This document shows positions 4,976 to 9,719 of a stretch of 64,000 nt of DNA, one piece after another. The translations under genes and the position numbers were made by a program. Location of the stretch: contig NZ_JACCCG010000004.1 in the NCBI RefSeq assembly GCF_013410955.1, forward strand, positions 248,001 to 312,000. The letters run 5' to 3'. Every line of letters begins with the position of its first letter. Position 1 is the stretch's first letter. The stretch is from Microbacterium sp. AK009 (GTDB lineage: Bacteria > Actinomycetota > Actinomycetes > Actinomycetales > Microbacteriaceae). Below the pieces are notes generated by a model. That model was not told the origin of the DNA and made no database searches. It saw nothing but the letters and a program-made list of their open reading frames with translations.

Positions 4976-5344
4976 TGGTGGAGATGGGGGGAATCGAACC
5001 CCCGTCCATCGCTGGGATACTGCGTCTTCTCCGGGCGCAGTCTGTAAAGACGTTCTGCTCGGCCCCGACCTTTGTCACAGACACCTAAGTCGACAGGCCC
5101 AGCCTGGGAAGAGTCCCGCGTGACGTCCAGGCACCGTCACGCAGCAAGTCCCCTAGATGACGCCAGAATCCGTAGCGGGAACACCTACGGTCTGACGGAG
5201 TTCAGGCTCGCTTAGGCAGCGAGGGCGAACTCAGTGCGCTTAGGTTCGGCACTTGTTGGTTCGCAGAGATCGTTAACGAGATAACTCTGCATCCTCGGCC
5301 CGCTTCCCGCAGATTCACAGGCGATGTCGAAACCGATCATCCCC
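4976..5344 (-). ncRNA. ssrA: Transfer-messenger RNA (tmRNA)
   Basis: Rescues stalled ribosomes together with SmpB. On the minus strand the RNA begins GGGGATGATCGGTTTCGACA and ends with a T-arm GGGGGTTCGATTCCCCC, then CATCTCC and ACCA. GGGGATG pairs with CATCTCC as the acceptor stem, with one G-U pair, and CCA is encoded. The tag frame runs 5250 to 5212 and reads AEPKRTEFALAA followed by TAA, ending in the usual degradation signal. Length is about 369 nt, normal for a one-piece tmRNA. smpB is on the same strand about 3.8 kb upstream. Confidence 0.95.
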
Positions 5345-5502
5345 ATGGATCCCTCGAGAGGGAGCCGCTGTCACACTGTGGAATTGCCATGCTCGACCGA
5401 TGTTTCGCCGAGCACATCAGGATACAACGGATGCCGGCGTCTCGCCATTCCCCGATGGATGGCGACGCGCGGGGTGCCTCTCCCCCGCGCGCCGTCACCA
5501 CG

Positions 5503-6309
5503 TCAGGCGAAGTCCAGCGCTCCGCGCACGATCGAGTCTCCGGAGTGGGTCGGATCGCCGTCGACCGGCTCGTCGGAGACATCCACGAGGACGAACTCAC
5601 GCAGATCGATCGTGTCGGGCACGACGAACTCGCCGGTCTGGCCCTCGAGCATGCCGAGGCTGATGATCTCGGTGGCATCCTCGGTGATCAGCCACACTTC
5701 GCGATTGCTGTCCGGATCGACATCGGCGTCGAGGGTCACCTCGATGACCGTCTCGTCTCCGCGCTCCACGACCACCGCAGACCCCTCGGCGCCGGGGTGG
5801 TCGGGAAAGGCGGCGAGCTCAGCGGACGCCAACTCGACGACCGTCGCCTGGCGCGTCAGGGCCCATCCCCCTACAGCGACGCCCAGCACCGCCACGCTGG
5901 CGGCCAGCACGAAGAGTCCGCGGATGAGCCCGCTGCGCCGACGAGGCGGCACGGGCGCATCGCCGGAGGCGGCGGGTGATCGATCCACTCCCCCGTCGGC
6001 GGGGCTCGTCACATCGCCTTCGACCGCGGGATCGATCTCCGAGGCGGCTGACACGCCGGAGATGTCTCCCGGCGTGGTGAATCCGAGTTCCTCCGAGATA
6101 CGTGACCACACGCGCTCGGGCGGGGCTTCGAGGTCTTCGAGCAGGACGGTGGAGCGACCGGCCACCACCGTGCGGGTCAGAGCGGACAGCTCCACCGCGC
6201 AGCGAGGACAGGTGCTGAGGTGATCCTGTTCGGCAGCGGTCGCCACCGGCTCTCCGATCGCAAGGAGCGTCAGGACTTCGGGATCGAGATGCGACTCAAG
6301 ATGCGGCAT
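5503..6309 (-). CDS. rskA: RskA-family anti-sigma factor
   Basis: Membrane-anchored anti-sigma-K-type factor, 268 residues. The N-terminal part has the zinc-associated anti-sigma pattern HxxxCxxC (H30, C34, C37). A Pro/Ala-rich linker with a basic PPRRR end leads to a single transmembrane helix (about 129-152), and the extracytoplasmic C-terminal half (158-268) resembles the RskA domain (VWLITEDATEIISLG). The start lies inside the end of the sigma gene (14-bp overlap), so the pair is co-translated. By analogy with RskA it should hold the upstream sigma factor until regulated proteolysis; no site protease is encoded nearby. Confidence 0.9.
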   Translation of the reverse strand: MPHLESHLDPEVLTLLAIGEPVATAAEQDHLSTCPRCAVELSALTRTVVAGRSTVLLEDLEAPPERVWSRISEELGFTTPGDISGVSAASEIDPAVEGDVTSPADGGVDRSPAASGDAPVPPRRRSGLIRGLFVLAASVAVLGVAVGGWALTRQATVVELASAELAAFPDHPGAEGSAVVVERGDETVIEVTLDADVDPDSNREVWLITEDATEIISLGMLEGQTGEFVVPDTIDLREFVLVDVSDEPVDGDPTHSGDSIVRGALDFA

Positions 6310-6886
6310 GGCTCACCTCCAATCGGGATCGCAAACGGGTAAGGCTTCGGCGGATGTGACTCTTGACGGTGCCCAGTGGCATGTTCAGCCGGGAGGCGAT
6401 CTGCTGGTGCGTCAGATCGTCGTAGAACGCCAGCTTGACGACCTCTCGGGCATCGGGTTCCAGGCGGCTGATCTCGTCGGCGAGAAGGATGGTATCGCCG
6501 ATGTCGACCTCCGGGGCGTCACGACCCATGGGTTCGGCGTACCTCTCGAGCTCTCGTTGCAGAGCTCCGATCCGTGCGCGCGCCTCGTGGGTGTCGGCGA
6601 TCCGGCGGCGGGCGATGGCGATCAACCACGTCGACACCCGCGCCTTGCCGGGGTCGAAACTCGCCCGGGAACCCCACGCCGAGACGAATGTCTTCTGCGT
6701 GACGTCTTCGGCGTCGCTGCGGTCTCCCAGCGAGCGGAGCGCCAGCGTGAACACCACCGGCGACCAGCGCCGGTAGATCTCCGCCAGCGCCCGCTCGTCC
6801 CCGTCTCGAAAGCGTTCACCGACCCCTTCGTCGGCCGCTCCCGGCGGCGAGACCGCCGAATTGTCGATACTCATGGTGGCGCTCAC
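6296..6886 (-). CDS. sigK: ECF sigma factor (SigK-like)
   Basis: RNA polymerase sigma-70 family, ECF group, 196 residues. Region 2 covers about 28-95 (LRSLGDRSDAEDVTQKTFVS, then STWLIAIARRRIAD), and region 4 about 135-188 with a helix-turn-helix (LTHQQIASRLNMPLGTVKSH). The partner is the RskA-like protein whose start overlaps its 3' end. Its start codon overlaps the sortase stop by 4 bp. Assignment to the SigK group rests on the partner type and gene order. Confidence 0.9.
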   Translation of the reverse strand: MSATMSIDNSAVSPPGAADEGVGERFRDGDERALAEIYRRWSPVVFTLALRSLGDRSDAEDVTQKTFVSAWGSRASFDPGKARVSTWLIAIARRRIADTHEARARIGALQRELERYAEPMGRDAPEVDIGDTILLADEISRLEPDAREVVKLAFYDDLTHQQIASRLNMPLGTVKSHIRRSLTRLRSRLEVSHAAS

Positions 6887-7521
6887 TCCTGTATGGGGGT
6901 GGCGAGGGCCACCACATTGTCCTGATAGCGCCCGATCGACGCGTCGAAAGGACCACCGCAGGTGATGAGGACAAGTGTGGGCGAACCGGACCGGGCGAAC
7001 AAGTCATCGACAGGAAGGTCGGCTTTCCGGTAGTAGGTGACCGAATCCAGACGATAACGGGTGAGCGCGCCCGTATCATCGGTCACTTCGATGACCGTTC
7101 CCTGAGCCAGATCCCGGATGCGGCTGAAGGGGCCGATCCCGTACCCGGGCATGTCGACATGGGCCGAGACGACGGTGCGTCCCTCCGCCGACTGGGGTCC
7201 AGGACCGAAGCGATACCATCCGGCCACGGCGGGGTCTTCGGGAAGCTCCATCGCATCGTTGGCGTCCACCCCGACGGGGATCACGGGAACGTCGATCCCT
7301 GCGTCCGCCACCGATACTCGCACCGGCGCCGGGACGACGGCGGCCGGCGGCGGTGTGGCCGGGGCCACGGGGATCTCCACCGAGGGGGTCGGTGCCGGTG
7401 CGGAGATCTCCGGGGCGGGAAGCGAGGTGGCCGGCTGCGGCGCCGATTCGACCGGGGTGCCGCAGCCGGTGAGGGCGAGGACGAGCAGTGCCACCAGGGG
7501 TACCGCTCGCCTCGCCCTCAT
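6883..7521 (-). CDS. Class F-like sortase, predicted lipoprotein
   Basis: Cysteine transpeptidase, 212 residues from the ATG at 7521, chosen because GAAGGACG lies directly upstream and a signal peptide begins there. The N-terminus is a lipoprotein signal (LALTGC, Cys20). A Pro/Ala-rich spacer (21-68) leads to the sortase domain with H121 (SAHVDMPG), C188 (TLVLITCGG) and R198 (SIGRYQDNVV), the expected His-Cys-Arg set. It lies between a DUF4397 surface protein and the sigma gene; stop overlaps the sigma start, and it begins 20 bases after the DUF4397 stop. Class F sortases usually attach or process surface proteins; the obvious client is the upstream DUF4397 protein. Confidence 0.88.
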   Translation of the reverse strand: MRARRAVPLVALLVLALTGCGTPVESAPQPATSLPAPEISAPAPTPSVEIPVAPATPPPAAVVPAPVRVSVADAGIDVPVIPVGVDANDAMELPEDPAVAGWYRFGPGPQSAEGRTVVSAHVDMPGYGIGPFSRIRDLAQGTVIEVTDDTGALTRYRLDSVTYYRKADLPVDDLFARSGSPTLVLITCGGPFDASIGRYQDNVVALATPIQE

Positions 7522-7541
7522 CGTCCTTCTATCCTCGCCGA

Positions 7542-8366
7542 TCAGCGACCGCTGCGGGCGCGGACAACGACCAAGGTGCCACCGGCGACACCCAAGGCGA
7601 CGAGGAGGCCGGCAGCGAGCCACGCACCCTGCACGAGCGTGTCCTGCGCGGCCAGCTGGCCACCGGCGCCCGACGGGACGCCGCCCGAGGGGCCACCGTG
7701 CAGGCCCTCGATGGTCTGCACGGCGAGAGCGAGGTTGCCGGCCTCAGCCGAGCCCCACGCGTAGACGATGGTCAGCGTGCCCTCGGCGACGTTGACGTCC
7801 GCCGGACCGATGACCGGGTCAGTGGTGCCCGCAAGGGCGACCGCAGCCGAGACCGTGCCCGCCGGGAGGTTCAGGGTGGCCTCGTTCGGGTTCGTCAGGT
7901 CCTCGACGACCGGGGAGCCGCCCGCGAGGATGTCGACGGCGGGTGCCGCGGCGACGTGACGGACCGTCAGACGGCCCTCGCCCGCAGCGGTCTGCGCGGT
8001 GTCGTTGACGAAGGCGTTGAGCGCGGGCTCGCCCGCCTCGTTCAGGTTGGCGGTGGCGGTGTAGTTCACACCGGCGTCCAGCGTCACCGAGGTCTGAAGG
8101 ATGGGGGCGCTCGCGTCAGCGGCGTCCGTCGCCGTGAGCGCGATGTCGTAGCTGTCCGCCGGGAGTGCCAGCGGGCCGGCGAGGTCGCCGGGCTGGAAGT
8201 CGTCGAGGGTCAATTCGCCGTTGACGTAGACGTCGACGGGAGTGTCCGGGATGCCGTGCAGCACCGAAAGCTGAGCCTCGCCGCTCGTGCTTGCGTTCGC
8301 GGGAAGGGCAAGGCCCAGTGCCGCGACGACGCCGACCGTGAGGCCGGCAACCATGGTCTTGCGCAT
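7542..8366 (-). CDS. DUF4397 surface protein with C-terminal membrane anchor
   Basis: Predicted exported protein, 274 residues from the ATG at 8366, preceded by a good AGGAGG; an upstream GTG at 8402 is in frame but less likely. The N-terminus is a Sec signal (MRKTMVAGLTVG...ANAS). Two DUF4397-type repeats are visible (LSVLHGIPDTPVDVYVNG and LTVRHVAAAPAVDILAGG). The C-terminus has a Gly/Ser spacer, a hydrophobic helix (about 245-268) and a basic tail RARSGR, the layout of a cell-wall sorting signal, but without LPXTG. First gene of the sortase/sigma/anti-sigma operon. Confidence 0.88.
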   Translation of the reverse strand: MRKTMVAGLTVGVVAALGLALPANASTSGEAQLSVLHGIPDTPVDVYVNGELTLDDFQPGDLAGPLALPADSYDIALTATDAADASAPILQTSVTLDAGVNYTATANLNEAGEPALNAFVNDTAQTAAGEGRLTVRHVAAAPAVDILAGGSPVVEDLTNPNEATLNLPAGTVSAAVALAGTTDPVIGPADVNVAEGTLTIVYAWGSAEAGNLALAVQTIEGLHGGPSGGVPSGAGGQLAAQDTLVQGAWLAAGLLVALGVAGGTLVVVRARSGR

Positions 8367-8490
8367 GAAGATCCTCCTGGGGTGAGTGGCAGTGAGGTTC
8401 ACCGCCTTTCATGAAGTACTTCTCGGCGCCACCGCCGTTTGGATGCACCCGCATGAGATTTTTCCGAATCGGCGTCGTAGAGTCGCCCTC

Positions 8491-9162: not shown

Positions 9163-9639
9163 TCACTCGCCGAGACGGTTGCGGGTTCGCATCGCCCGCT
9201 CCGCCTCGCGACGGTCCTGGCGCTCGCGGAGGGTCTGGCGCTTGTCGAATTCACGCTTGCCCTTGGCCACGGCGATCTCGACCTTGGCGCGTCCGTCGGA
9301 GAAGTACAGGCGCAGCGGAACCAGCGTGTACCCGCCCGCGGAGACGGCGTGGGAGAGCTTGACGATCTCGTCCTTGTGCAGGAGCAGCTTGCGCGTGCGC
9401 TTGGCCGCGTGATTGGTCCAGTGCCCCTGGGAGTATTCGGGGATGTGGACGGCGTCGAGGAAGGCCTCCCCGCCGTCTATGTAGGCGTAGCCGTCGGTCA
9501 GGTTCGCGCGTCCCTGACGCAGCGACTTCACCTCGGTGCCGGTGAGGACGAGTCCCGCCTCATAGGTCTTGTCGATGAGGTAGTCGTGGCGCGCGCGACG
9601 GTTCGTCGCGATGACCTTCTCACCGCGTTCGCGTGCCAT
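9163..9639 (-). CDS. smpB: SsrA-binding protein SmpB
   Basis: tmRNA partner in trans-translation, 158 residues, normal length. Family hallmarks: [20 protein letters not shown] near the N-terminus, [14 protein letters not shown], the [20 protein letters not shown] block, and a basic C-terminal tail ([20 protein letters not shown]) that inserts into the mRNA channel. Start at 9639 is supported by GGAGGA upstream. It follows ftsX on the minus strand after an 80-base gap. Confidence 0.96.
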
Positions 9640-9719
9640 GGCTGCATCCTCCTTCAGGCCGCGCGGCGGCATCCGGTCCTCCGGAATCGCGCACGGCAGC
9701 CCGCCAGTCTAGCAAGCGG

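Follow-up and report, generated by a model that had tools for sequence, protein, structure and literature searches.

In mycobacteria and Yersinia, a surface-protein gene, an extracytoplasmic function (ECF) sigma factor gene and an anti-sigma factor gene form the mpt83–sigK–rskA cassette, in which a SigK site precedes the surface gene and which is reported to be autoregulated in M. tuberculosis; SigK sites show strong conservation across Actinobacteria, according to the accessible part of PMC7509140. We found that a unit of this type in Microbacterium sp. AK009 also carries a sortase gene. In a 64,000-nucleotide stretch of its genome (contig NZ_JACCCG010000004.1, positions 248,001 to 312,000; hereafter the window), a DUF4397 surface protein, a class F-type sortase, an ECF sigma factor and an RskA-type anti-sigma factor are encoded in succession on the minus strand. 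The unit shares with the cassette, as far as the latter is described in that part, the grouping of surface-protein, ECF sigma and RskA genes and a sigma site ahead of the surface-protein gene, but it differs in having a DUF4397 surface gene, an inserted sortase, a zinc motif in RskA and a sigma factor free of Cys. A preliminary description of this DNA had supposed that no such circuit was known, a supposition that gives way before the published cassette with its upstream SigK site (PMC7509140).

Class F sortases were first reported from Propionibacterium acnes (PMC13251363), and the available portions of PMC13251363 and PMC6998099 give them no assigned physiological role or function. The window sortase has in common with the class (NF033748) the sortase domain, the His and Cys residues and an Arg-to-Asn change; it differs in its score (108.3 bits, cut-off 166), and the DUF4397-linked members separate in the tree from the rest of the sample. 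In Actinoplanes missouriensis, neighbours without a known pentapeptide are described as possible substrates for SrtF1/AMIS_11010 and SrtF4/AMIS_36440. Compared by description only, these loci also place a class F sortase by a protein with a signal peptide, a membrane helix and a basic tail; for them, unlike for the window unit, the available portion of PMC13251363 makes no mention of a sigma pair. The idea that the DUF4397 motif is wholly new was set aside, because a related sorting domain, NCBIfam GVDTG_CTERM (NF058571), exists. Both have a glycine-rich segment of the G-V-x-T-G type ahead of a C-terminal membrane helix, but the DUF4397 tail reads GV[PN][ST]G and was undetected by that model at E<=1 (cut-off 29 bits). 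No paper pairing DUF4397 with a sortase was found in the literature search, and the ECF classification may already tabulate such a context. What is new is thus the joining of a surface-protein–sigK–rskA cassette to a class F-type sortase and a likely client with a variant glycine-rich segment.

A conserved four-gene unit

The features of the unit, all on the minus strand, are as follows.

8419..8447, minus: promoter-like footprint TGCATCC-N18-GAA, predicted -35/-10 of the sigma factor encoded downstream (from sequence and conservation)
7542..8366, minus: DUF4397 surface protein, 274 aa (PF14344, 101.2 bits; cut-off 30.6)
7668..7682, minus: predicted sorting pentapeptide GVPSG, residues 229-233 of the DUF4397 protein (from conservation and model)
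6883..7521, minus: class F-type sortase, predicted lipoprotein, 212 aa (PF04203, 55.4 bits; cut-off 26.6)
7462..7473, minus: sortase lipobox L-T-G-C, residues 17-20 (from sequence)
7159-7161, minus: sortase His121 (invariant in alignments)
6958..6960, minus: sortase catalytic Cys188 (invariant in alignments of 15 and 27 rows; codon checked)
6916-6918, minus: sortase Asn202, in the usual Arg region (invariant in alignments)
6296..6886, minus: ECF sigma factor, 196 aa from a GTG start or 192 aa from the ATG at 6874 (Sigma70_r2, 64.5 bits; r4_2, 53.5 bits)
5503..6309, minus: RskA-type membrane anti-sigma factor, 268 aa (PF10099, 53.8 bits; cut-off 29.4)
5463..5494, minus: strong hairpin directly 3' of rskA (fold -37.3 kcal/mol, z -2.76 versus 200 shuffles)

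The genes run from 8366 to 5503, with 20 nt between the DUF4397 and sortase genes, a 4 nt overlap between the sortase and sigma genes (given the GTG start) and a 14 nt overlap between the sigma gene and rskA. The four genes called on this strand in the preliminary description, and their limits, were borne out by Pfam matches over the cut-offs and by re-reading of the sequence.

Conservation was followed in two sets of loci, which overlap in genomes and are not independent. The first comprised 47 loci: 42 full-length orthologs of the same genus (the window included; at least 63% identity) and five from other families of the order. The same-genus sample consisted of 149 genomes, 51 of which had a DUF4397 match, those beyond the 42 orthologs being distant; an ortholog at 87% identity was found in one genome (G074), and also in M. 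kunmingense. The second set comprised 80 named loci, the best 80 of 158, from Microbacterium, Herbiconiux, Naasia, Amnibacterium, Cellulosimicrobium, Puerhibacterium, Cellulomonas, Demequina, Micromonospora/Verrucosispora, Pseudonocardia, Modestobacter and some metagenome-assembled genomes.

The sortase gene adjoined the DUF4397 gene in every locus of both sets (47/47 and 80/80). The sigma and RskA genes came next in 43 of the 47 loci, the sigma ortholog (68-73% identity) being located elsewhere in the four exceptions (G017, G012, G118 and G133). In the named loci the pair was adjacent in 75 of 80, downstream on the same strand in 65 and divergent in ten, all of the latter from Micromonosporaceae (10/10). 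Among the five that remained, three had a sigma ortholog of 66-68% elsewhere, one record ended inside the sortase gene (L311), and one was pairless in a short record (L317). Among the genomes compared for the sigma gene, an ortholog of 68-100% identity was present in 7/7 bearing the DUF4397 gene, and the best match was 30-37% in 6/6 without it. The search of related genomes for the four-gene order, proposed in the preliminary description, thus found that order kept on one strand in 43/47 and 65/80 loci, and the four genes are a real conserved unit.

The wider class was sampled as 80 class F loci across the phylum, taken by score from the NF033748 matches listed, with no genome contributing more than three and the choice made blind to the neighbours. 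The sortase was found by a first gene caller in 65 of the 80 and by a second in 77, some frames being wrong in both. In these 77 loci a sigma-like gene was nearby in only three, and the four-gene order occurred only in L249 (its anti-sigma factor judged by eye), so the sigma coupling is special to the DUF4397 branch and not class F-wide. The L249 locus, from a distant family of the phylum (G199), repeats this order with DUF4397, sortase, ECF sigma and likely anti-sigma genes but lacks the GCATCC footprint.

As for the surroundings, the hairpin behind rskA is a possible transcript end. Beyond it lies the tmRNA gene (4976-5344), and a SIMPL-domain gene on the other flank reads away from the operon. 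The operon and the SIMPL gene are located between the tmRNA gene and smpB (9163-9672), both of which are parts of trans-translation. The whole genome (3.46 Mb, 14 contigs) contains three sortases (PF04203), one DUF4397 gene, two RskA_C proteins and one fasciclin gene over the cut-off.

The sortase and its likely client

The DUF4397 protein has a signal peptide, two beta-rich domains (about residues 30-121 and 130-219), a C-terminal helix and a basic tail. In its AlphaFold model (pLDDT 76.7), the linker 225-242 with GVPSG falls below 50 and a helix spans 243-272, so that GVPSG probably lies in an exposed linker just ahead of the membrane helix. The protein is most likely a beta-sandwich surface stalk or adhesin; the Foldseek matches, the best to the PepT2 extracellular domain (TM-score 0.50 by query) and a weaker one (0.22) to a Bacillus surface protein, fit this assignment and prove nothing. 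Sequence and model together present the general layout of a sortase substrate, that is, a signal peptide, a conserved segment, a membrane helix and a basic tail.

The conserved segment reads GV[P/N][S/T]GxxG and stands ahead of the membrane helix, and the pattern [GAS][VI]x[STA]G was kept in 46/47 and 78/80 C-termini. LPxTG was found in 0/47 and 0/80 C-termini (127 in the overlapping sets) and LAxTG in 0/47, the window protein included, and recognition of DUF4397 through LPxTG or LAxTG was rejected, neither string being present in the window protein. The proposal that DUF4397 is the sortase's client is supported, with the link between the two resting on this C-terminal segment and not on LPxTG.

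The window sortase matched the class_F_sortase model NF033748 with an E value of 2.7e-31; its score being below the cut-off, we label it class F-type and not a curated class F member. The second such sortase of the genome, with 159.3 bits, is also below the cut-off, and the model matched at E<=0.001 in 127 of 198 Actinomycetota genomes, 33 of them over it. A search of PDB sequences with the window sortase gave no class F structure, the best profile matches being other sortases (E 3e-4 and above). The sortase is predicted from its sequence to be a lipoprotein, as had been proposed: an LTGC lipobox is present, and a lipobox occurs in 44/47 orthologs (40 by pattern and four by eye), the other three having a membrane segment instead.

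In a tree of 66 sortases, all 20 DUF4397-linked sortases and five of the six with DUF4397-like neighbours were on one side of a 99/99 branch, and the CHRD-linked and the distant-DUF4397-linked sortases formed their own groups. In this tree, whose root is not fixed, the 28 unlabelled rows represent a part of the sample, and three DUF4397-like cases are absent because the domain-cutting pattern missed them. Identity between the window sortase and its paralogue in this genome is 38%, and orthologs in other genera are closer to it. Two same-genus genomes (G006 and G096) encode a fusion of a class F-type sortase domain with a GH8 glycoside hydrolase (L123 and L130; by Pfam for L130); next to the fused sortase is a distantly related DUF4397 protein whose tail reads GGIxTGGGG, with glycosyltransferase-like genes close by.

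The tails of proteins encoded next to other class F sortases were compared with those of DUF4397. In 23 of the 77 phylum-wide loci no gene stood upstream on the same strand within 350 nt, which left 54 neighbours, and 45 once nine DUF4397-like proteins had been removed. A profile trained on DUF4397 tails only reached at least 6 bits in 21/45 of these neighbours and in 14/355 other genes (Fisher 7e-14), and a held-out test with the first gene caller gave, at 6 bits, 16/44 neighbours and 12/275 others. A wider pattern was present in 39/54 upstream neighbours and 22/355 other genes, and LPxTG in 0/54. The 54 neighbours fall into 27 clusters, 19 bearing the wider pattern, with ice-binding, fasciclin, CHRD and DUF4331 among the families. 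The GVDTG_CTERM model matched 12 of the 17 class F neighbours scanned, two of them over the cut-off. In the genome studied, the second class F-type sortase (C4:374673) stands behind a CHRD-type protein ending in GVDTGAGG, a helix and RRR, which is the only GVDTG_CTERM protein of the genome over the cut-off. This locus (L058, C4:369000-381500) and six similar ones (L051, L056, L057, L061, L062 and L063) combine a CHRD gene, a second class F-type sortase gene and a divergent ECF sigma gene (7/7); the gene after the sigma gene resembles an anti-sigma factor by eye only, without a Pfam match, and most of these loci have an inverted repeat, CGTTCATC...GATGAACG, upstream of the CHRD gene.

These data bear on whether the sortase serves some other substrate, DUF4397 being a mere co-regulated neighbour held in the membrane by its C-terminal helix. 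The DUF4397 tail, without LPxTG and unseen by GVDTG_CTERM, is consistent with such an arrangement, as is the presence of two further sortases in the genome. However, sortase and DUF4397 genes stay together in 127/127 loci (47 and 80, overlapping), even where the sigma/RskA pair has been relocated; the conserved C-terminal segment has relatives among the tails of other class F neighbours; and the genome's other class F-type sortase has, in the CHRD-type protein, a neighbour of its own. We therefore regard a different substrate as unlikely.

The sigma/RskA pair and the promoter footprint

The sigma factor is not SigK proper. It scored 106.4 bits against the SigK model NF007228, below the cut-off of 226, with SigK among its best NCBIfam neighbours. 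It contains no Cys, and hence no counterpart of the Cys133/Cys183 redox pair reported for 56% of ECF19 members in the accessible text of PMC7509140; among 43 relatives, 31 had no Cys, 11 had one and one had two. The anti-sigma factor belongs to the RskA type, with an N-terminal anti-sigma domain, a membrane helix from residue 131 and an RskA_C domain over the cut-off, and it carries an HxxxCxxC zinc motif that was kept in 42/43 relatives. Its helices 1 and 2 (HLDPEVLTLLA and GEPVATAAEQDHL) fit the AS19-2 consensus (HLDPDQLALLA and GEPLDADERAHL; PMC7406223, available in part), indicating that the pair is ECF19-like; this comparison with the AS19-2 description was made by helix consensus.

In all 47 loci the motif GCATCC occurs within the interval from -140 to -40 relative to the DUF4397 start. 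The strict form, TGCATCC-N18-GAA, preceded the gene in 42/47 (chance 0.02% per 300-nt region) and the relaxed form, GCATCC-N18-[G/A][A/T]A, in 44/47 and 75/80 (chance 0.35%). In 103 distinct anchored segments both boxes were nearly fixed and the spacer was near random. In two genomes with a relocated pair (G133 and G017) the pair is divergent from a fasciclin gene, with a strict site facing each way, and in a third (G012) the fasciclin gene and the sigma gene have one strict site each; the gene layout in G118 is like that of these three. In the ten Micromonosporaceae, GCATCC-N18-G[AT]A points toward DUF4397 and another such site toward the sigma gene (10/10), and these loci were dropped as a footprint-less, pair-less negative control because the pair is present, divergently oriented, with relaxed sites facing both genes. 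Footprint and pair thus move together, as would be expected if this sigma factor read the site, and since the footprint also precedes the sigma gene where the pair is relocated or inverted, autoregulation is indicated. On this comparison of sequences, the operon is probably autoregulated by its own sigma factor.

A wider regulon in the same genome was considered and set aside, as five of the seven other strict sites were inspected and none was convincing as the promoter of a secreted gene. One strict site (L347), 19 nt before a membrane-protein open reading frame (ORF) and present also in G074 and G109, may mark a further target.

The mycobacterial SigK promoter boxes are CCATCC and CCGAAT. 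The genome has a second SigK-like pair, beside the fasciclin gene, with CCATCC-N15-CCGAAC upstream. This locus (L060, C5:94000-106500), in which the SigK/RskA-like pair is by a fasciclin lipoprotein gene, gives the genome a second switch, related to that of the window and differing slightly in its -35 box.

The unit could also be viewed as the known surface-protein–sigK–rskA cassette with the sortase as a passenger, the sigma factor's job being a wider regulon in which fasciclin is ancestral. The published mpt83–sigK–rskA cassettes (PMC7509140, as far as accessible) speak for this, as do the relocated pairs, which adjoin fasciclin genes bearing the same footprint. The relocated pairs in three same-genus genomes (G133, G017 and G012), where fasciclin gene and pair both have the footprint, likewise give substance to the analogy with SigK/RskA control of fasciclin proteins drawn in the preliminary description. 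There is no fasciclin gene beside the window pair, however; the only one of the genome is elsewhere (C5), with the different sigma/RskA pair and its CCATCC-N15-CCGAAC site, and the DUF4397 and sortase genes are partners of the pair in 75/80 named loci. A passenger sortase seems to us distinctly unlikely.

Proposed working and significance of the unit

Gene order and its conservation, the footprint, the C-terminal segment, the sortase His and Cys and the grouping of DUF4397-linked sortases can all be read directly from the sequences, and we consider it reasonably probable that the unit as a whole is a self-regulating module for making and mounting DUF4397 with its own sortase. Upon a signal, RskA would free the sigma factor, likely by regulated proteolysis, by analogy with M. 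tuberculosis RskA, for which Rip1 cleavage is reported and the first protease and the signal are given as unknown in the available part of PMC7509140. The freed sigma factor would then direct transcription of its own operon from the GCATCC-N18-GAA promoter; the co-made sortase would cleave DUF4397 at the GVPSG-type signal, between S/T and G; and the cleaved protein would end attached to the cell-wall peptidoglycan.

Several observations weigh against this module. The shuffled tails of the same 45 class F neighbours reached 6 bits in 9.1% of draws, showing that composition accounts for part of the profile result; 24 of the 45 neighbours were under 6 bits, outside the strict profile, and the wider pattern was shaped after the data had been seen. 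GVDTG_CTERM had no match at E<=1 to the window DUF4397 and matched just 2/22 of its relatives, weakly. LAxTG occurred near the C-terminus in 8/80 relatives, in six of them within the membrane helix. The neighbours at L200, L201, L205, L210, L221 and L223 and the distant DUF4397 proteins at L124, L127, L128 and L129 stop at or soon after the glycine-rich motif, and without a helix they are a misfit with the usual sorting mechanism. In the tree, one sortase with a DUF4397-like neighbour (L222) was outside the DUF4397-linked group, and three more with such neighbours were absent. The genome has 8 strict promoter sites versus 2 for the reversed control, so that other sigma targets are possible. 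Finally, a quadruple class F sortase deletion in Actinoplanes missouriensis had no sporangium-formation phenotype, according to the accessible part of PMC13251363.

A more far-reaching version can be put forward, in which RskA would sense the mounting of DUF4397, with unprocessed client or free sortase sites as the signal, and would match client and sortase output to the capacity of the wall, the class F sortases using G[GV]x[TSA]GxGG as a second code beside LPXTG. We know of no sigma/anti-sigma pair that monitors the state of a sortase belonging to it, and we hold this version to be quite improbable.

Returning to the sortase of the self-regulating module, His121, Cys188 and Asn202 were invariant in 27 aligned class F-type sortases, and the window sortase shows the class F trait of His and Cys kept with Arg replaced by Asn. 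Loss of the catalytic Arg was set aside as a novelty, since the Arg-to-Asn change is already reported for actinobacterial class F sortases generally in the available text of PMC6998099. That the sortase is a binding partner or sensor and not a transpeptidase, its usual catalytic Arg being replaced, is very improbable, for although no Arg was invariant in either 15 or 27 aligned sequences and Asn202 occupies the Arg region, this replacement is general in the actinobacterial class (PMC6998099, same portion) and the His and Cys are invariant.

Through this unit, one class F-type sortase can be paired with a likely client of its own, and both a recognition segment and a switch are predicted for it; relatives in several actinobacterial families keep the same gene set together. 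If the proposed module is correct, the GVDTG-type sorting signal would extend to tails that are missed by the present models, and a SigK-type switch would be re-usable for the control of one anchoring system.

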